Source: Burkholderia sp. HI2500 (GTDB lineage: Bacteria; Pseudomonadota; Gammaproteobacteria; Burkholderiales; Burkholderiaceae). Taken from it: 64,000 bases of DNA. Of this stretch, positions 10,708 through 18,981 are shown one piece after another. Position numbers and translations under genes: made by a program. The stretch lies in contig NZ_NKFL01000006.1 of NCBI RefSeq assembly GCF_002223055.1, positions 1,364,001 through 1,428,000 on the forward strand, in the 5' to 3' direction. The stretch's first letter is position 1, and each line of letters starts with the position of its first letter. The notes below the pieces were generated by a model. It worked only from the letters and a program-made list of their open reading frames with translations, ran no database searches and was not told where the DNA came from.

Positions 10708-10728
10708 AAAAAAGGGCCGGCGCGCCGG
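10708..10728 (-). terminator. Terminator of the peptide-secretion operon
   Basis: On the minus strand, palindrome CCGGCGCGCCGG abuts the stop codon of the OmpW-like gene and is followed by CCC and six T residues, a standard intrinsic terminator. Confidence 0.75.
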
Positions 10729-12120
10729 TCAGAAGCGGAACGCGAGCAGCACGCTGGCCAGCACGGGGTTCGCGGAAATATCGAACGTGTTCGATGCGAG
10801 TTGCCGATTCGGCTGGTCGATGTCCAGCGTAATCTTCGTCCGTAACGGGATATAGGTCACCATGCCGGTGATCCAGAACTGGCGCGTGATCTGGTAGCTC
10901 GCGCCGACGGTGAACACCGGCTCCCACACGCTCTTCACCTTGGCCGACACATTGGTCTTGCCCGACAGCAGCAGGTCGCCGCCGGCGTCCCAGATCCGCT
11001 GGAACAGCGACGGGTCGAGCAGCAGCGACTGCAGGCTGCCGATGTCCGCGCCCGCCGCGAGCAGCCCGCCGAGCGACGCGAGCTTGCGCTGGAACACGGG
11101 ATTCAGGTTCGTGTTCGTGAAGCGCGTATAGCTGATGCCGATGCCCGCAAACGGGCGGAACCGATCCTCGCGCTCGCCGAGGTAGTACTTGAACACGACG
11201 GAGCCGAGCCACGCGCGCGTGGTCGCGAGCGGGTTGCTTTGCGTATTCGCGAGGTCGATCAGCGGAAAGCGCCCCTGGACGCCGGAAAAGATCCGGTCGA
11301 GCGGCAACGCGATGCTGCCGTGCCCGCGCAGCGTCAGCACCGGCGGAATGCCCGCGCCGAGTTCGGCCGCCCAGTTCTCCGAGAAAAAGTGGGTGAACGT
11401 GAAAGCCAGCGTGTTCGTATTGCTGAGCGACAGGCTCGAACCCCGGTTCTGGAAGCTGTTCAGCCCGAGTGCGTCCGTGTGCGTCGTCACCGGCGTCGAT
11501 CGGCCGGTCGTGCCGACGAAGTGCCAGCCGAGGCCGACCATGTTGCGGTCGTCGCCCATCAGCTGCGTCAGCAGCGGCGGCGCCTGGGCGGCCGGCAGAT
11601 CGGGCAGCCGCGACGGGTCGATCGGATGCAGCTCGTACGGCATCCGGTCGGCGTGGACGACACCGCCCGCCGGTGCGTCATCCGCCGTTGCATCGCGTGT
11701 CGCGGCCGGCTCGCAACCGCCGGCCGAGCCGTTGTCGTCGAAGCCGATGCCGTCCGCGCCGTCGTCGCGTGTGGCCGCGCATGCGCGCCCCGCCCCGCGG
11801 GTCCGCTGACCGAGCGTGATCTTGCGTGCCGTGAACGGTACGGCATCGGCTGGCGACACATCGACCGACTCGCCGCGACCGCCGCGGGCCGGCCCCGGAT
11901 CAGTCGCCCACGCACTCGCATCGAACCCGTCCGCGTCGCCGCCCGGCCAGAAGCCGATTCCGTCCGCGCCGGCCTGCCAGCGTGGCGCAGCGTCGCCGTC
12001 CGGCTGCGGCGCGCCGTGCGCGGCGGCCGCGCACGCGAACAGCGTCGCGCCGAGCCAGCGCGACAGCGGACGCACCGTGCCCGGCCGCGCGCGGCGGCGG
12101 TCCTTGTCCCGGCTCGCCAT
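10729..12120 (-). CDS. OmpW-like outer-membrane protein with long N-terminal extension
   Basis: The 463-residue product has a signal peptide (about 1-36), then roughly 120 residues of low-complexity Gly/Asp/Ala sequence, then a C-terminal part (about 185-463) that resembles the OmpW beta-barrel family and ends in Phe, the outer-membrane insertion signal. Typical OmpW proteins are near 210-250 residues, so both the extension and the barrel insertions are unusual. The extension contains the heptad GADGIGF twice (51-57 and 121-127). It is the last gene of the peptide-secretion operon, four bases after the HlyD stop. It could be an accessory channel or a self-protection factor; both ideas are inference. 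A terminator abuts its stop. Confidence 0.82.
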   Translation of the reverse strand: MASRDKDRRRARPGTVRPLSRWLGATLFACAAAAHGAPQPDGDAAPRWQAGADGIGFWPGGDADGFDASAWATDPGPARGGRGESVDVSPADAVPFTARKITLGQRTRGAGRACAATRDDGADGIGFDDNGSAGGCEPAATRDATADDAPAGGVVHADRMPYELHPIDPSRLPDLPAAQAPPLLTQLMGDDRNMVGLGWHFVGTTGRSTPVTTHTDALGLNSFQNRGSSLSLSNTNTLAFTFTHFFSENWAAELGAGIPPVLTLRGHGSIALPLDRIFSGVQGRFPLIDLANTQSNPLATTRAWLGSVVFKYYLGEREDRFRPFAGIGISYTRFTNTNLNPVFQRKLASLGGLLAAGADIGSLQSLLLDPSLFQRIWDAGGDLLLSGKTNVSAKVKSVWEPVFTVGASYQITRQFWITGMVTYIPLRTKITLDIDQPNRQLASNTFDISANPVLASVLLAFRF

Positions 12121-12124
12121 CGGC

Positions 12125-13420
12125 TCAGGCCGGCACGCCGAACAGGCGCTGACGGATGCGGTACAGCGGCTCGAACAGCCATTCGAGCAGGCTGCGCCGC
12201 TCCAGCACGATGTCGGCCTTCAGCATCATCCCGGCGCGCAGTGACAGCGGCCGCCCTTCGAATGCCGGCGTGCGGTCGGCCAGCTCGACCCAGGTCTTGA
12301 AGTAGGTCTGCGGCGCGGCGGCATCGCCCGGCAGGTTCAGCTCCTTCGCCGAAAACGCGACCGGCGAGATCGACAGCACCTTGCCGCGATACGTGCCGAA
12401 CTTCTCGACCGGATAGCTGGCGTACGCCACCTTCACTTCCTGCCCCTTCTTCACGAAGCCGGCCTTCGACGACGGAATGTAGACCTCGGCGATCAGCCCG
12501 TCCGCCTTCGCGGGCAGGATCTCGACGACGCGCGTGCCCGGCGGGTCGATCACGCCGCCCTGCACGACGTCGAGCCGCACGATCTGCCCGTCGGCCGGCG
12601 CGTACAGCACCTGGTTCACGTTCTCGTCGATGTTGTATTCCTTCGCGTTCAGCTCCTCCTGCTTGATCTTCAGTTCCGCGTTCGCACCGTCGTACTTGCT
12701 CTGCATCGTGTCGAGGTCGCCGCGCAGCTTCATCGCGTTCTTCGCGAGTTCTGCGCGGCGCAGCAGCAGATCCTGGTACGCCTGCCCGGCCTGCAGGTAC
12801 TGCGTGTTGACCTGGTTGTACTGCTCGAGCGTCACGACCTGTTCGTCGAGCAGCTGCTTCACGCGTGCGCGCCGTTCGCCGTACTCGTCGACGATGCGTT
12901 TCTGGTCCTGGATCTGCCGGTCGATCAGCCCGCGGCTTTCACCCTGCGCGGCGATCTGCTGGTTGATCTGCTGCACCGACGACTTGTATTCGAGCCGCGC
13001 CGCGTCGATCTGCTGCGTGACCTCGACGCGCTGCCGGTCGAGCGCGGCGCGCAGCCCCTGCACGTTGTTCGCCTGGCTCACGAAGCTCGTGTCGCGCGTC
13101 ACCGCGAGCAGCCGCTGGCCGGCCTTCACGTGCTGGTCCTTGCCGACGTAGACGTCGCGCACGGCCCAGCCCGGCGGCGCGCTGACGCCGATCAGCCCCG
13201 AGCGCGGCGTCAGCATCCCCGATACGCTCTCGGTGTTCGCATAGCTCAGCTCGACGAGCGCGGTCACGAACATCGCGAACATCGCAAGCGACAGGTAGCA
13301 GAAGAACCGCATCGACACCGGCACGTCGACGACGCCGTGGATCACGGTGCCGAAGGTCGTGCCGCGCGCGAGCTTGCGCGACGGCTTCTGTTCTCGAAGG
13401 GCGGAATTCCAGGTCGGCAT
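12125..13420 (-). CDS. HlyD-family membrane-fusion protein
   Basis: The 431-residue product is the periplasmic adaptor of a type I secretion or bacteriocin exporter. A single transmembrane helix lies at about 36-57 (MRFFCYLSLAMFAMFVTALVEL). Biotinyl/lipoyl-like beta segments (PPGWAVRDVYVGKDQHVKAG) follow, then a long alpha-helical hairpin (about 120-260, rich in Gln/Glu/Arg, coiled-coil like), and the C-terminal beta domain (LYAPADGQIVRLDVVQGGVI). It sits between the acyltransferase and OmpW-like genes and would link the C39 ABC exporter to the TolC-like channel encoded divergently at 17566. Confidence 0.92.
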   Translation of the reverse strand: MPTWNSALREQKPSRKLARGTTFGTVIHGVVDVPVSMRFFCYLSLAMFAMFVTALVELSYANTESVSGMLTPRSGLIGVSAPPGWAVRDVYVGKDQHVKAGQRLLAVTRDTSFVSQANNVQGLRAALDRQRVEVTQQIDAARLEYKSSVQQINQQIAAQGESRGLIDRQIQDQKRIVDEYGERRARVKQLLDEQVVTLEQYNQVNTQYLQAGQAYQDLLLRRAELAKNAMKLRGDLDTMQSKYDGANAELKIKQEELNAKEYNIDENVNQVLYAPADGQIVRLDVVQGGVIDPPGTRVVEILPAKADGLIAEVYIPSSKAGFVKKGQEVKVAYASYPVEKFGTYRGKVLSISPVAFSAKELNLPGDAAAPQTYFKTWVELADRTPAFEGRPLSLRAGMMLKADIVLERRSLLEWLFEPLYRIRQRLFGVPA

Positions 13421-13432
13421 GGGGCGGGCTCG

Positions 13433-14437
13433 TCAGGAGCGACGCCGCGCGGCCGCATCGAGCAGCGGCGCCGGCATCAGGTAAGGCGTGAAGTGTTCCC
13501 AGAAATGCCACTGCTCGGGCTGGCGCACGAGCGCCTGCTCGAGCCGGTCGACGATGCGCTGGTGCGTCGCGCGCACGGGCGACGCGTCGTCGTCCGCGCC
13601 GAGCATCGGCGCGAGCGGGCGGGCCGCGAGTTCGGTGAAATGCACTGCGCAGCGATCGCGGAACGGCACGCCGGTCGCATACGCGACGAGCAGCGGAATC
13701 CCCTGCTCGACCGCGAGCTTCACGCCGCCGCCGGCCATCCGCACCCAGCGGCCACCGAGCCGGCAGCGGTTGGTCTTGCCGAACTTGCCGTGCAGGTCGG
13801 AGAACAGCAGGAATACCGGCGCCTCGCGCCGCAGGCTCGTGATCAGCCGGCGCAGATGCACGCGCTCCTCGATGTCGATGAACTCGACTTCGCCGGCGCC
13901 GTATTCGGCGACGAGGCGCAGTGCATCGTCGAAGAACGCGCCGGGCGCATCGCGGTGCAGGATCACCATCAGCTTGCGGTCGTCGGGAATCATGAAGCGC
14001 AGCTTCGTGACGAACAGCATCAGGTTGCCGAAGTGCAGCCCCGCGAGCATCAGCGGGCCGCCGCGCGCGAGCGCCGCCTGCAGTTGCGCGTCGCCGTCGC
14101 ACGCCATTCCATCGATCATCGACTTCATCGATTCAAGGCTGTGCGACCGCAGCTTGAGCCCCGCGAACTCCGCTTCGAACAGCTCGCGCACGATCGCCGC
14201 CGCCACTTCCCGCACGCGCCGCGGATCGTCGTTCAGGTGCGTGCCCAGCATGAACGCGACCGCACGCTCGATCGACTCGCGAATGCACGGAAAGCAGCGC
14301 AGGCATGCGCCCGAGCACCAGCGCACCAGCCGCAGCCCGCGCGCGGGCGACGTGCGCAGCGCGACGGCGCGCACCGCGCGGCGCACCAGGAACGCGTACG
14401 AGAACGGATTGAGCAGAAAAAGTCGCCCGAGCATCAT
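13433..14437 (-). CDS. LpxL-like lysophospholipid acyltransferase in peptide operon
   Basis: The 334-residue product resembles the LpxL/HtrB lauroyl-acyltransferase (LABLAT) family, which transfers fatty acyl chains from acyl-ACP at the inner membrane. The segment LMLAGLHFGNLMLF (129-142) corresponds to the catalytic HX4(D/E) motif, but the acidic residue is Met140 here (H135-FGNL-M). The second conserved region (LFSDLHGKFGKTNRCRLGG) and C-terminal FWEHFTPY are present. The start ATG at 14437 overlaps the stop of the ABC gene as ATGATG, so translation is coupled. A lipid acyltransferase inside a double-glycine peptide exporter operon is unusual; it might acylate the peptide or alter the envelope for immunity, both untested. 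Confidence 0.82.
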   Translation of the reverse strand: MMLGRLFLLNPFSYAFLVRRAVRAVALRTSPARGLRLVRWCSGACLRCFPCIRESIERAVAFMLGTHLNDDPRRVREVAAAIVRELFEAEFAGLKLRSHSLESMKSMIDGMACDGDAQLQAALARGGPLMLAGLHFGNLMLFVTKLRFMIPDDRKLMVILHRDAPGAFFDDALRLVAEYGAGEVEFIDIEERVHLRRLITSLRREAPVFLLFSDLHGKFGKTNRCRLGGRWVRMAGGGVKLAVEQGIPLLVAYATGVPFRDRCAVHFTELAARPLAPMLGADDDASPVRATHQRIVDRLEQALVRQPEQWHFWEHFTPYLMPAPLLDAAARRRS

Positions 14438-16554
14438 CGCGTCTCCGCGGCCGAACGCCACGCGTCGGTCACATCGGTCAATACGCCGTCCTGCATCTCG
14501 TAGATCCGGTCGACCCTCGACAGGATCGACGCGTCGTGCGTGACGAGCACGATCGTGCACGGCAGCGTCAGCACGTTGCGGCAGATCTCGTGGGTCGTCG
14601 CCTGGTCGAGGTTCGACGAAAATTCGTCGAGGATCAGCAGGCGCGGCTCGCAATACAGCGCGCGTGCGATCAGGAGCCGCTGCATCTGGCCGGCCGACAG
14701 GAATTTCTGCGTATCGCCGAGCGGCGTGTCGTAGCGATGGTCGAGCCGCTCGATCTCGTCGTGAATGCACGCGAGCTTCGCCGCATCGAACATCGCGCCG
14801 ATCCGCGGCGCGGGCGCGAAGTTCGTGATGTTGTCGCGGATCGTCCCGCGAAACAGCTGGTCGGACTGCGTGACGGCCGCGAGATGCTTGCGGTACTGCC
14901 GCAGGTTCACTTCCGCGAGATCCACACCGCCGACGAACAGCGTGCCGGGCTCGGGCCGCACGAGCCCGCAGATCAGGTTCAGCAGCGTCGTCTTGCCGCT
15001 GCCGGTGCGGCCGACGATCGCGATCTTGCCGCCCGCCGGCACGTCGAGCGCGATGTCGCGCAGGATCGGGCGGTTGCCGCCCTTCGGCGTGTACGACAGC
15101 GCGCGGATCGCCAGCGCGCCGTCGAAACCGTCGATCGGCCGCACGACCGCGTCCGGCGCGGGCTCCTCCGTCCCGGTCTGCAGCACGTCCGCGACGCGGT
15201 CCATGTGCACCTGCAACACCTTGCGGCGCACGTAGAGCTGGATCGAGTCGATGAACTTGTCGGCGAACAGGTTCTTGTACTGGATGAATGCGTAGATCAC
15301 GCCGATCGTGCTCTGCCCATGCATCACGAGCCACGCGCCGTACGTGACGATCACGAGCTGCTCGACGTGCACGATCCCCTTCGAGATCGCATCGAACAGC
15401 AGCTGCAGCCGCTCCTGCTGACGCATCGCCTGCAGCTTCTGCGTGAACGCGTTCACCCACAGGCTGCTGCGCGCGGTCTCGGCCGACAGCAGCTTGATCG
15501 AGTGCGCGGAGCGAATGTTCTCGATCAGCAGCGCGTCGGCCTCGGCGCCGCGCGTGAGGATCTGCGACATCGAGTCCTGCAACTGCGGCTGGATCGCGAG
15601 CCGGCTCAGCGCAAACAGCACCATCCCCGCGAGACTGATGCCGGCCAGCACCGGGCTGTAGTACAGCATCAGCACGAGCGTCAGCGTGCAGGTGACGATA
15701 TTGAGCAGCCCGCCGACCAGCCCATCGACGAGAAAGCACCCGACCTCCGACACCGACGACACGCGCGAGATCGAATCGCCGGTGTTGTGGAACAGGAAAT
15801 AGCCGATCGGCAGCCGCGCGAGATGCCCGACCATGTTCGCCGACAACTGCTGCGACACGATGTTGCGCAGGTAGCTCTTGATGTTGCCGACGAGGTTCGC
15901 GTACAGCGTGTCGAACAGGAACACGATCGCGAACAGGATCGTCAGCAGGTACAGGATGTCGACGTCGGTCTTCTTCAGCGCTTCGTCGATCGTCAGCTGT
16001 ACGTACGACGGGCCGAGCAGCAGCAGGAGCTGCGCGGCGACGCCGCCCGCGATGCCGATCGCGAGGCTCTTGCGGATGCCGGTCAGCCCTTCGAGGTAGT
16101 CGCGCAGCCGGATCCGGTCGGCCTGCCCCGACCGCGTGAAGCCGATGTCCGGATTCAGCTCGAGCGCGTAGCCGGTGATGTGCGTGAGCGCCTGCGCGAG
16201 CGGCAGCTTCGTCTCGCCGAGCGCGGGATCGACGATGTGCACGCTGCCGTAGCCGACCTTCGTCAGCACGACATAGTGGTTCATCCCCCAGTGCAGGATG
16301 CACGGCGTCTTGAGCGCGTCGAGTTCGCCCGCGTCGAACTGCAGCCCGCGTGCGCGCAGGCCGAGATCGTTCGCGATCTCCATCAGGTCGAAGAACGACA
16401 GCCCGGAATCGATCCGCACCGGATAGCGGTTGCGCAGCGTGCGCAACGTGGTTTCGCGCCCGTGCCACGACGCGATCATCGCGAGGCAGGCCAGGCCGCA
16501 CTCCGTCACCTCGTCCTGCAGGATCGGACGGACTTTACGCGTATTGAAGAGCAT
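14434..16554 (-). CDS. C39-peptidase ABC exporter for double-glycine peptides
   Basis: The 706-residue product is a peptidase-containing ABC transporter (CvaB/ComA/LagD type). Residues 1-140 form the C39 peptidase, with catalytic Cys19 (TECGLACLAM), His93 (GMNHYVVL) and Asp109 (IVDPALG). Six transmembrane helices span about 160-430. The ATPase has Walker A GRTGSGKT (515-522), signature LSAGQ (619-623) and Walker B LLILDE (639-644). It would cut leaders after Gly-Gly and export the mature peptides. Two genes with matching leaders lie directly upstream at 17111 and 16700. The 3' end overlaps the acyltransferase start. Confidence 0.96.
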   Translation of the reverse strand: MLFNTRKVRPILQDEVTECGLACLAMIASWHGRETTLRTLRNRYPVRIDSGLSFFDLMEIANDLGLRARGLQFDAGELDALKTPCILHWGMNHYVVLTKVGYGSVHIVDPALGETKLPLAQALTHITGYALELNPDIGFTRSGQADRIRLRDYLEGLTGIRKSLAIGIAGGVAAQLLLLLGPSYVQLTIDEALKKTDVDILYLLTILFAIVFLFDTLYANLVGNIKSYLRNIVSQQLSANMVGHLARLPIGYFLFHNTGDSISRVSSVSEVGCFLVDGLVGGLLNIVTCTLTLVLMLYYSPVLAGISLAGMVLFALSRLAIQPQLQDSMSQILTRGAEADALLIENIRSAHSIKLLSAETARSSLWVNAFTQKLQAMRQQERLQLLFDAISKGIVHVEQLVIVTYGAWLVMHGQSTIGVIYAFIQYKNLFADKFIDSIQLYVRRKVLQVHMDRVADVLQTGTEEPAPDAVVRPIDGFDGALAIRALSYTPKGGNRPILRDIALDVPAGGKIAIVGRTGSGKTTLLNLICGLVRPEPGTLFVGGVDLAEVNLRQYRKHLAAVTQSDQLFRGTIRDNITNFAPAPRIGAMFDAAKLACIHDEIERLDHRYDTPLGDTQKFLSAGQMQRLLIARALYCEPRLLILDEFSSNLDQATTHEICRNVLTLPCTIVLVTHDASILSRVDRIYEMQDGVLTDVTDAWRSAAETR

Positions 16555-16587
16555 GGTCGGGCACCCGGGGCGCGACGACGCGCCGCC

Positions 16588-16610
16588 CGGGCCTGCCGCT
16601 AGCGGGCCCG
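16588..16610 (-). other. Hairpin between peptide genes and exporter gene
   Basis: CGGGCC and GGCCCG arms flank an inner CCGCTAGCGG palindrome in the 145-base gap between the second peptide gene and the exporter gene. No T-run follows on the transcribed strand, so it may stabilise the peptide mRNA or partly attenuate read-through. Confidence 0.4.
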
Positions 16611-16699
16611 TGGCGGGTCGTGCGCGATACGCATGGGCGCAGCCGGCACGCTGCCGGCTGCGACGGAAGATCGGTGTTACCGGCTGCTGGGCGGGCCGC

Positions 16700-16885
16700 T
16701 CAGCGCGACGAGCCGAGCGACATCCGGAACTGTTCGACGGCGCGGGTCTGGTACTGGGTCATCAGGCCCTGGAGCGTGGTCCCGATCGACTGGTTGACGA
16801 GATCGACCGTATAGGCGGCCGAATTGGAGTAAAGCGACGCGCCGCCGCGAATCTGGCGGGCCTGTTCTTCCGTGATGTCTCGCAT
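16700..16885 (-). CDS. Double-glycine leader peptide B (bacteriocin-like)
   Basis: A 61-residue product starting MRDITEEQARQIRGG. The first 15 residues form a double-glycine leader, with cleavage expected after Gly15, leaving a 46-residue peptide (begins ASLYSNSAAYTVDLVNQSI, ends FRMSLGSSR) with no Cys, two Met, and moderately hydrophobic character. The leader aligns with that of the gene at 17111 at M1, T5, E7, Q8, R10, G14 and G15. The C39 exporter encoded just downstream fits as processing and export partner. ATG at 16885 has AAAGG upstream. The mature sequence is not one I recognise; bacteriocin, signal or effector roles are all possible. Confidence 0.8.
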   Translation of the reverse strand: MRDITEEQARQIRGGASLYSNSAAYTVDLVNQSIGTTLQGLMTQYQTRAVEQFRMSLGSSR

Positions 16886-17080
16886 TTGTTGTGGCCTTTA
16901 TATTGTCGGAATGCCCGCCACCGTCAGCCAATTGCAATCTCAATGGCCGTCAACTTTATTACGGGGATAATCCGGCACTCCCGCCTCCTGATAATCGCCC
17001 GAACCGAAAATAATGCATTCCGGATTCGCTTTATTTCCACTGCGGCGATCGATTCTTTTCCTTCTGTTTCGCAGCATTTC

Positions 17081-17103
17081 GCGCGGGGGGCGCCTCCCCG
17101 CGC
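17081..17103 (-). terminator. Hairpin after first peptide gene
   Basis: An 8-bp GCGCGGGG/CCCCGCGC stem with a 7-base loop, eight bases past the stop of the peptide gene at 17111. It lacks a T-run, so it looks more like an attenuator or mRNA 3'-end protector than a full terminator. Confidence 0.45.
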
Positions 17104-17110
17104 ACGGCGG

Positions 17111-17284
17111 TTACTTGCCGGTGTTATTGAACGTCTTCGGGTTCTGCAGGTAATTGCCGAGGCTCGGCAGGAACTGGCCGAGCGCGGTCACCACCGGCGC
17201 GGCGTCAACAGCGAGGCTACCCAGCGAGCTGATCGCACCGCCGCCATGCACATTCCTGACCTGTTCCGTCGTCATGACCTTCAT
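17111..17284 (-). CDS. Double-glycine leader peptide A (bacteriocin-like)
   Basis: A 57-residue product starting MKVMTTEQVRNVHGG. Cleavage after Gly15 would release a 42-residue, strongly hydrophobic, Cys-free peptide (GAISSLGSLAVDAAPVVTAL then GQFLPSLGNYLQNPKTFNNT and GK). Repeated SLG/ALG/SLG spacing suggests one amphipathic or membrane-active helix. ATG at 17284 is preferred because AGGAG lies six bases upstream; ATG at 17287 is equally in frame. It is the first gene of the minus-strand operon. Two peptides with the same leader but different cores recall two-peptide bacteriocins; no separate immunity gene is visible. Confidence 0.8.
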   Translation of the reverse strand: MKVMTTEQVRNVHGGGAISSLGSLAVDAAPVVTALGQFLPSLGNYLQNPKTFNNTGK

Positions 17285-17565
17285 CATTCTCTCCTCGTAA
17301 AAAATAAAGATGACGCAAAGAACCTTCATTGAAAGACAAACGGCTTTTAATCCCTAGCGACTTGTTAATCTAATAATCACTGCGATTACGAGCCGAAATC
17401 AGGCTATCATGCGAGCGCATCGGAATTCAATGGAGGACACACTCTTACAGTGGTGTTTTCCGATGCGCCACGATTGGCAGGCATTCACGCTGTTTGAATT
17501 TCAATTTCAATACGTTTAAATCCCGCCGCACTGCGTTGCGGCACGGGCAGGAGACGGAGACGGCC

Positions 17566-18981
17566 ATGTTTGAAACGAGGCGCGCGAATCGCGGATCGGC
17601 AACGCGGAATGCGGGTAATTCCCTATCAAGTTTTTCGACTAGGTGGAATCCCCGACTTGCAACCATGACATTGTTCGCTGTAACGATAGCCGGCGTGTCC
17701 GCGAACGCGCACGCGTTCTGCCTCGACACCGCGTTCCAGTACGCGGTCGTGCACGATCCGCGCTACCTGCAGGCACGCAGCGAATACGACGCGGCCCGCC
17801 AGAAATTCCCCGAAGCGCGCGCGCAGATGCTGCCGCAGGCCGCCGCGCAACTCGAATGGGGACGCTACGGGACGCACGCGAACCTGTTCGGCATCGACGT
17901 CAGCGGATCGAGCAATGCCGCATACGGTTCCGCGCAGGTCACGCAGGCGCTGTTCAACGTGCCCTACCTGTACGACATGCGGCGCGCGACCGAGTACGAG
18001 GAATCGGCGAAACAGAAGCTCGAGGTGGCGCGGCAGGACCTGATCCTGCGCGTCGCGAACGCGTGCTTCGACCTGCTGAGCGCGCGCGAGAAACTGCAGT
18101 CGGCCGACGACGAAGTGAACGCGCTCACCCGGCTCGAAAGCGATACGCGACGCATGGCGCAACTCGGGATGAAGACGATCGGCGATACGGCGGAAATCGA
18201 GGCGCGCCGCAGCCTCGCGCAATCCGACGAAGCCCTCGCGCAAACCGACGTCGACGCACGCCGCGCGCGCTACGAGACGCTGCTCGGTTCGACGATCGAT
18301 TTCTCGCGCTGGCCGCGGCTCGCGATGCGCGGGTCGTCGCCGCGCATTCCGTCGGGCGACTACGCGCCGCAGGACAACCCCGCGTACCGGCAGGCGTATC
18401 GCGACGTCCAGGTCGCGCGGCTCGCCGCGAAGCGCGTCAGCGCCGAGCACTTGCCGACCGTCGACCTGTTTGCGTCGTATTCGCGCGGGCTCAACCCGAA
18501 CCTGCGCGGGCTCACCGATCGCTCCGACTTCCATCAGAGCGCGGTCGGCGTGCAGGTGACGATTCCGATCTTCTCCGGCGGCAGCGTGTACTACCGGCAG
18601 GTGGAAGCCGAACACGTGACCGAGCAATACCGCAACCGGCTGCGCGAGGTCGAGGAGCAACTGGGCACCGATCATCGCGAGGCGCTGTCCGCGCTCGAAT
18701 CGGTCGGCAAGCGCATCCGCGCGCTGCAGCAGTCGCTGCAGGCCGCGCGGCTCGCGTACGATTCGTCGATGAAGGCGCATCAGGTCGGCTACAGCACGAC
18801 GTACGAAACGCTGAACCTGCGCCGTGAAATCTCGGGCATCCGGCAGAAGCTGTTCGACAGCTATCTCGACGCGCTGAAGCTGCAGCTGAAGCTGAAAAGC
18901 GTGCTGGGTACGCTCGACGAACAGTCGTTGATCGCGGTGGACAGCTTCCTCGAAAGCAACGCGGCGAGCGACCGGAGTTGA
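17566..18981 (+). CDS. TolC-family outer-membrane efflux/secretion channel
   Basis: The 471-residue product is a TolC-like channel. A hydrophobic signal (MTLFAVTIAGVSANAHA) is preceded by about 33 basic residues if the ATG at 17566 is used, which has GGAG upstream; ATG at 17665 would give a conventional signal peptide. The body shows the duplicated TolC helical pattern, with repeats around AFQYAVVHDPRYLQARSEYD and the later QDNPAYRQAYRDVQVARLAA. It is divergent from the peptide A gene across an AT-richer gap and completes the tripartite exporter with the C39 ABC protein and HlyD adaptor. Confidence 0.92.
   Translation: MFETRRANRGSATRNAGNSLSSFSTRWNPRLATMTLFAVTIAGVSANAHAFCLDTAFQYAVVHDPRYLQARSEYDAARQKFPEARAQMLPQAAAQLEWGRYGTHANLFGIDVSGSSNAAYGSAQVTQALFNVPYLYDMRRATEYEESAKQKLEVARQDLILRVANACFDLLSAREKLQSADDEVNALTRLESDTRRMAQLGMKTIGDTAEIEARRSLAQSDEALAQTDVDARRARYETLLGSTIDFSRWPRLAMRGSSPRIPSGDYAPQDNPAYRQAYRDVQVARLAAKRVSAEHLPTVDLFASYSRGLNPNLRGLTDRSDFHQSAVGVQVTIPIFSGGSVYYRQVEAEHVTEQYRNRLREVEEQLGTDHREALSALESVGKRIRALQQSLQAARLAYDSSMKAHQVGYSTTYETLNLRREISGIRQKLFDSYLDALKLQLKLKSVLGTLDEQSLIAVDSFLESNAASDRS

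Follow-up and report, generated by a model that had tools for sequence, protein, structure and literature searches.

The window analysed here, 64,000 nucleotides of Burkholderia sp. HI2500 (contig NZ_NKFL01000006.1, positions 1,364,001 to 1,428,000), carries between its positions 10,708 and 18,981 a locus in which two short genes for peptides with double-glycine (GG) leaders are followed by a C39 peptidase-containing ABC exporter (PCAT), a protein resembling the PatA/LpxL acyltransferases, an HlyD-type adaptor and an OmpW-like barrel. The analysis confirms the locus, and the peptides are solidly paired with the exporter. Taking the evidence together, we give an even chance to its being a dedicated peptide-export operon with an acyl-tagged product, which acts as a conserved signal, surface or niche factor rather than as a narrow-spectrum bacteriocin. 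While the export logic is already known, the two conserved substrates and the PatA/LpxL-like partner lacking the acidic residue of the HX4-E/D motif are new.

Organisation of the locus

From its promoter the operon runs on the minus strand (17287 down to 10729) in the order peptide 1, peptide 2, C39 exporter, acyltransferase-like protein, HlyD and OmpW-like protein, with the gene for a TolC-like channel diverging from it. The genes are:

17111..17287, minus strand: peptide 1 precursor, 57/58 residues in translation, with leader (M)MKVMTTEQVRNVHGG and core GAISSLGSLAVDAAPVVTALGQFLPSLGNYLQNPKTFNNTGK
16700..16885, minus strand: peptide 2 precursor, 61 residues in translation, with leader MRDITEEQARQIRGG and core ASLYSNSAAYTVDLVNQSIGTTLQGLMTQYQTRAVEQFRMSLGSSR
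14434..16554, minus strand: C39 peptidase-containing ABC exporter (PCAT), 706 residues; Pfam C39 (99 bits), ABC_membrane and ABC_tran
13433..14437, minus strand: PatA/LpxL-like acyltransferase family protein, 334 residues; His135, Arg154 and Asp214 kept, HX4 acid replaced by Met140
12125..13420, minus strand: HlyD-type periplasmic adaptor, 431 residues; Pfam HlyD_3 (64 bits), type_I_hlyD below cut-off
10729..12120, minus strand: OmpW-like outer-membrane barrel, 463 residues, extended by a long N-terminal region; Pfam OmpW (46 bits) over residues 211-340
17566..18981, plus strand: TolC-like outer-membrane channel; Pfam OEP (174 bits), TIGR01844 below cut-off

All of these genes lie where the original prediction, made from the DNA letters and their translations, had put them. 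There is strong support for its central claim of an export locus of the PCAT type for two double-glycine peptides. The start of peptide 1 is probably one codon upstream of the earlier call, at the ATGATG at 17287, and by inspection the TolC-like gene probably starts at ATG 17566 rather than TTG 17494.

The exporter has all the parts of a PCAT, the C39 Cys/His/Asp together with the ABC membrane and ATPase domains, and its closest solved relative is PCAT1 (4ry2; E 7.9e-69). Gln13, Cys19, His93 and Asp109, together with Walker Lys521, Asp643 and His673, are the same in all 31 orthologues described below, which bears out the intact C39 triad that had been proposed. A membrane fusion protein and a TolC-type channel are present as family-level matches that do not reach the NCBIfam cut-offs. 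The OmpW-like protein resembles the AlkL, OprG and OmpW structures by sequence (E 8e-6 to 4e-4), and its gene has the highest rate of nonsynonymous change (dN) among the genes measured. The product of 10729-12120 also has approximately 180 extra N-terminal residues with a repeated GADGIGF motif.

Distribution and loss in Burkholderia

In a sample of 65 genomes of the genus Burkholderia, peptide 1, peptide 2 and an exporter orthologue (at least 88% identity) occur in the same 31 genomes, and the other 34 carry none of the three. The 31 carrier loci are that of HI2500 and 30 others. It had been set beforehand that orthologous exporters without peptide genes beside them would count against the pairing; both peptides lie beside the exporter in 31 of 31. 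Because they are syntenic and conserved in this way, the two short open reading frames (ORFs) are beyond chance. HlyD and the acyltransferase-like gene are likewise present in every carrier locus, the latter frameshifted once (L086, genome G026) in an otherwise intact locus. The OmpW-like gene is found in 30, the remaining stretch stopping at a contig end, and the TolC-like gene in 31, one of them cut by a contig end; the gene order is the same. Carriers of the acyltransferase-like gene include B. cenocepacia, B. lata, B. arboris, B. cepacia, B. ubonensis, B. stagnalis, B. singularis, a strain of B. multivorans and Paraburkholderia acidicola, where both peptides are present too.

The exporter search also finds paralogues of approximately 31-35% identity, giving 43 of the 65 genomes in all at E 1e-100. 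HI2500 itself has a second C39 exporter at another locus (G000:C4:967581-969683, its start within L001), which is 34% identical, and paralogues of this kind are seen in many genomes of the genus.

The ppk2 site was inspected in the 34 non-carriers. Of the stretches taken, two (L189 and L193) are short pieces at contig ends and one (L190) is a second ppk2-like place rather than the site itself. In 27 of the 34 stretches the operon is missing and both flanks, ppk2 and the gamma-glutamyltranspeptidase gene or part of it, are present; four of these (L169, L171, L177 and L195) have 6-7 kb of other DNA between the two flanking genes. Scraps of the OmpW-like gene were found by protein match in seven non-carriers (L163, L164, L167, L168, L172, L174 and L181), of which L181 retains a scrap of the TolC-like gene as well, and DNA matches of 64 and 89 bases add two more (L176 and L180). 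At least nine of the 34 thus retain scraps of the end genes and, as the end points differ, the operon would seem to be old and to have been removed more than once. We infer that it is ancestral, vertically inherited and repeatedly deleted as a block. Such frequent block deletion says that the operon is conditionally useful.

Conservation of the two peptides

The leaders had been described as near-identical; they are merely alike, with 7 of their 15 residues the same. The predicted mature peptides, of 42 and 46 residues, have average unmodified masses of 4232.7 and 5045.6 Da and both are small and hydrophobic or amphipathic. Peptide 1 is 100% identical in 20 of the 31 genomes, and in all 31 its translations and their alignment keep the C-terminal motif GxYLQxPKxxNxxGK. 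For peptide 2, 22 of 61 positions are invariant across 13 variants.

Both peptides are under purifying selection. In the 20 genomes with identical peptide 1 its dN is 0 and its proportion of synonymous differences (pS) 0.042, against a pS of 0.13-0.24 for the exporter, acyltransferase-like, HlyD, OmpW-like, TolC-like and ppk2 genes. Peptide 2 in the same genomes has a pS of 0.077 and a dN/dS of 0.19, and the exporter a dN/dS of 0.076. Invariant columns make up 93% of the peptide 1 gene in these 20 loci, 88% of the 162 nucleotides upstream and 91% of a hairpin directly behind it; with the flanks nearly as conserved as the gene, part of the constraint acts on the DNA or RNA.

Database searches gave no match to a characterised bacteriocin. 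Peptide 1 matches the Bacteriocin_IIc leader weakly (E 0.054, below cut-off), and in the protein database it falls into three clusters, of which two have a named source, one a Paraburkholderia record and one a JGI record. No convincing Pfam match was found for the 13 variants of peptide 2. The highest-ranking entry was a phage portal auxiliary protein (E 5.5e-4), which came up for 2 of the 13 variants and was taken as chance. A suspected resemblance to the R-body protein RebB was dropped, there being no such Pfam match among these variants.

No dedicated immunity gene had been seen at the locus, and the comparison of the 31 loci agrees. None of six ORFs of at least 30 residues lying mostly in the gaps is open in more than 18 of the 31 loci (immunity elsewhere in the genome was not searched for). 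Over all 31 loci 53% of the columns of peptide 1 and 39% of those of peptide 2 are invariant, against 7-12% in the intergenic stretches, with 7% and 12% in the gaps around peptide 2. An HxlR-type gene was seen beside the channel in 7 of the 31 stretches, which extend only approximately 1 kb beyond the channel.

An acyltransferase-like protein found repeatedly beside C39 exporters

Enzymes of the PatA/LpxL fold work at the inner membrane, where they use acyl-ACP (acyl carrier protein) or acyl-CoA. The LpxL-like protein belongs to the PatA/LpxM fold class, and structure comparison lists PatA, LpxM and GPAT at high Z, a list that leaves room for other families. The position of the HX4 acid is Met in all 31 Burkholderia loci. 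A family of 71 members (P0013 excluded), gathered with a profile of acid-less sequences and therefore describing the family rather than testing it, has no Asp or Glu at this position in any member. The catalytic His is kept in 70 of 70 readable members, the block-3 Asp (Asp214 here, by alignment) also in 70 of 70 and the Arg in 71 of 71.

The protein is thereby part of a wider family found with exporters, a point absent from the original prediction. At six loci outside Burkholderia, those of Methylobacterium (L132), L197, L210, L211, L235 and L236, a family member stands beside HlyD and a C39 exporter, with unrelated GG-type precursors nearby. With Burkholderia counted once, seven of seven exporter-adjacent lineages are acid-less (HFGNLM, HMGPYV, HTWDYW, HMGCFA, HMGVFP, HMGAYV and HTGFFA) against 3 of 18 other profile hits (Fisher p 2.5e-4, a descriptive value since the lineages are related and not independent and some stretches are cut by contig ends). 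These 18 hits not beside a C39 exporter (L212-L220 and L238-L246; L237 is the same site as L213 and was not counted) keep the acid in 15 cases and lack it in L212, L213 and L219; at least three of the stretches (L212, L239 and L245) end at a contig end near the gene, so that the absence of an exporter there is less sure. In L219 (7611-10220) the ORF directly after the acid-less LpxL-like gene (HMGNGI) is ABC transporter-like and showed no C39 match.

The peptide cores of the exporter-adjacent loci look unrelated. In L197 (3256-3477 and 4085-9845), from another Burkholderiaceae genome, a glycine-zipper, Cdz-like GG peptide lies near TolC-like, acyltransferase-like, HlyD and frame-broken C39 exporter genes. 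GG peptides rich in Cys, Lys and Pro come just before the acyltransferase-like gene in L210 (9062-9358), L235 (8702-8836) and L236 (10015-10696), as pairs of similar peptides in L210 and L236.

The precedents disagree on how the missing acid affects activity. The motif of LpxL and LpxM is HX4E. In E. coli LpxL the loss of activity was 1000-fold for H132A, 3000-fold for E137A, 170-fold for R169A and 15-fold for D200A (PMC6286764). PatA D131A, on the other hand, retains 37% of its activity while E200A abolishes that of PatA, and the authors assign the charge-relay acid to block 3 in HtrB, MsbB and PatA (PMC4792965). In LpxM the His bonds to Asp192 (PMC6286764). Since the block-3 acid pairs with the His in both PatA and LpxM (PMC4792965, PMC6286764), the missing HX4 acid was not taken as proof of a dead enzyme, and the protein may be active.

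Comparison with known systems

RaxX of Xanthomonas is a tyrosine-sulfated peptide with a GG leader, served by RaxST, RaxA and RaxB (PMC8872720). Like the Burkholderia locus, the RaxX/RaxSTAB system has a short GG-leader precursor, a modifying enzyme in the operon, an HlyD-type adaptor, a C39-PCAT and a TolC-type exit and is spread over many species, and the available excerpts of the source mention no immunity gene. It differs in having a single peptide, a sulfotransferase in place of the PatA/LpxL-like protein and an unlinked outer-membrane partner, with no OmpW-like barrel mentioned in those excerpts (PMC8872720). No sulfotransferase match was found among the operon genes with Pfam and NCBIfam.

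The class II microcins of Enterobacterales share the GG leader, the C39-PCAT, the membrane fusion protein and TolC (PMC9746304). A GG-leader precursor beside a C39-PCAT, as expected of such microcins, is present at all 31 orthologous loci, while no conserved gene for the small cognate immunity protein expected nearby was found. The Burkholderia locus also has two conserved peptides, linked TolC-like and OmpW-like genes and the acyltransferase-like protein, and its cores are conserved whereas those of class II microcins are highly variable. The Caulobacter Cdz system resembles it in exporting two small proteins, CdzC and CdzD, through a type I secretion system from leaders ending in G[G/A/S], and differs in that its cluster, in the available excerpts, has no obvious modification enzyme (PMC5380434). 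The Burkholderia cores, inspected by eye in the alignments, lack the extended glycine zipper (GxxxGxxxG) of Cdz proteins, and no immunity gene was found.

With PatA, LpxL and LpxM the Burkholderia protein shares the family fold and the block-3 acid; it differs in the absence of HX4-E/D, throughout the collected family, and in the position of its gene within a peptide-export locus in the seven lineages read. Acylated ribosomally synthesised and post-translationally modified peptides such as the nostolysamides are modified by GNAT-type acyltransferases. If the lipidation reading holds, the likeness to them would be a ribosomal peptide bearing an acyl chain; the nostolysamides differ as class II lanthipeptides acylated on Lys (PMC13060382).

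Proposed mechanism and alternatives

The GG leaders would recruit both precursors to the exporter, whose C39 domain is predicted to cleave after Gly14-Gly15 by the chemistry usual for a PCAT, and the PCAT, the HlyD adaptor and the TolC-like channel would together export the two mature peptides. Before or during export the PatA/LpxL-like enzyme would add an acyl chain, most likely to one of the peptides, and the tag may keep the product on membranes or on the surface of the cell, with possible help there from the OmpW-like barrel. The best reading of the LpxL-like protein would then be a dedicated acyltransferase that lipidates the exported peptides, a part of the explanation for which the chances are about equal either way. 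As the enzyme sits in a peptide-export operon, its most economical acceptor would be the peptide, just as RaxX is for the sulfotransferase RaxST (PMC8872720). Speculatively, an amine acceptor would depend less on the His than a hydroxyl does, and the acid could have been lost for this reason. Three points speak for a conserved signal, surface or host/niche-interaction factor: the identity of peptide 1 across species, the lack of a visible immunity gene and the linked modifier. A bolder proposal, which we put forward tentatively and think somewhat unlikely, is a new class of lipidated ribosomal peptides: Burkholderia, a second genus of Burkholderiaceae and Methylobacterium-like bacteria would have in their PCAT loci the acid-less PatA/LpxL-fold enzyme in common, the HX4 acid lost on a shift from lipid hydroxyls to peptide acceptors, and the Burkholderia peptides would be a conserved extracellular lipopeptide signal or surface pair.

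Several observations weigh against the acyl-tagged signal or surface factor. Loss of the HX4 acid could abolish activity, as the LpxL E137A precedent indicates, and E127 of A. baumannii LpxM is critical as well (PMC6286764), while the absence of the acid throughout the 71-member family is partly due to selection with an acid-less profile. By eye the peptides of the seven lineages share no acceptor but the N-terminus, so that peptide acylation is not demanded by the sequences. Over all 31 loci the dN/dS of the peptides (0.38 for peptide 1 and 0.32 for peptide 2) is above that of the exporter (0.16). Repeated loss shows the operon to be dispensable and also fits a competition weapon. The NCBIfam matches listed include three bacteriocin-exporter models, whose cut-offs the exporter misses by far, so that the class of its substrate cannot be read from it.

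There is a considerable, if lesser, chance that the acyltransferase-like protein leaves the peptides untouched, being an inactive lipid-binding helper of the exporter or a remodeller of membrane lipids, with the peptides exported unmodified as either signal or bacteriocin. The HX4 acid missing from all 71 members fits this, as does the near inactivity of LpxL E137A (PMC6286764), and the unrelated-looking peptide cores at exporter-adjacent loci are more easily understood if the protein works with the exporter than if it modifies particular peptides. A dead enzyme would, however, be expected to lose the His, Arg and block-3 Asp, which every readable member keeps, and it is the block-3 acid that bonds to the His in the PatA and LpxM structures (PMC4792965, PMC6286764).

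A novel two-peptide bacteriocin, a signal and a contact-dependent effector had all been offered in the original prediction. A bacteriocin, whether class II microcin-like or a Cdz-like contact-dependent inhibitor, with immunity unlinked or provided by the OmpW-like or acyltransferase-like protein, now seems unlikely: the identity of peptide 1 in 20 of 31 genomes and the absence of a conserved small intergenic gene weaken it, as do cores without the extended glycine zipper, and a signal or surface factor fits better. In its favour are two small hydrophobic or amphipathic peptides, a patchy presence through repeated deletion and the precedent of Cdz, a toxin pair of two co-exported small proteins, with Cdz-like systems reported for B. 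cepacia at loci unspecified in the excerpts (PMC5380434). Subunits of a surface fibre or coat, neither signal nor toxin, appear quite improbable. The low synonymous divergence of peptide 1 (pS 0.042 against 0.13-0.24), with its conserved 5′ region and 3′ hairpin, would fit a highly expressed structural product, but Pfam and NCBIfam show no amyloid or pilin family match and no usher-like gene among the operon products.

Among the matches listed from the open-access literature no paper describes the locus or a C39 exporter with an LpxL-like neighbour; a screen for GG peptides from 2003, which covered 79 Gram-negative genomes and is cited in the available excerpts of PMC9746304, may include these peptides. 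Earlier finds of this kind in Gram-negative bacteria, conserved secreted peptides that have their own exporter and modifier, have proved important, as with RaxX. A peptide pair kept unchanged in many Burkholderia species and block-deleted in others offers a natural experiment for signalling or niche adaptation. If active, the PatA/LpxL-like protein would add an acyltransferase fold to peptide modification, and its pairing with C39 exporters makes such peptides simple to look for in genomes.

Promoter, hairpin and terminator

Three further features lie outside the genes:

17374..17410, minus strand: conserved block of 37 nucleotides containing two dyads, within the divergent promoter region, a possible regulator site
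17078..17110, minus strand: GC hairpin directly 3′ of the peptide 1 stop, a possible mRNA stabiliser or processing site
10708..10728, minus strand: probable intrinsic terminator, CCGGCGCGCCGG followed by a T-run, by inspection

In the promoter block 29 of 37 columns are invariant in 31 loci and 35 in the 20 loci, and the dyads are TAATC-N5-GATTA and AGCC-N7-GGCT. At up to three mismatches it is a single site in its own genome, which speaks against a shared regulon; binding of a dedicated regulator is possible. A lux-type box in the promoter was judged by eye not to be conserved. The hairpin, for which invariant columns fall to 70% in 31 loci, has a minimum free energy of −19.1 kcal/mol and is no more stable than shuffled sequences (z −0.81), so that it was not retained as a significant structure in spite of its conservation. 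An Rfam scan of 16000-18000 gave one sub-threshold match only. The terminator proposed to close the operon was not listed by a consensus scan, which requires five pairs; by eye, a short GC palindrome and a T-run do stand at 10728-10708.

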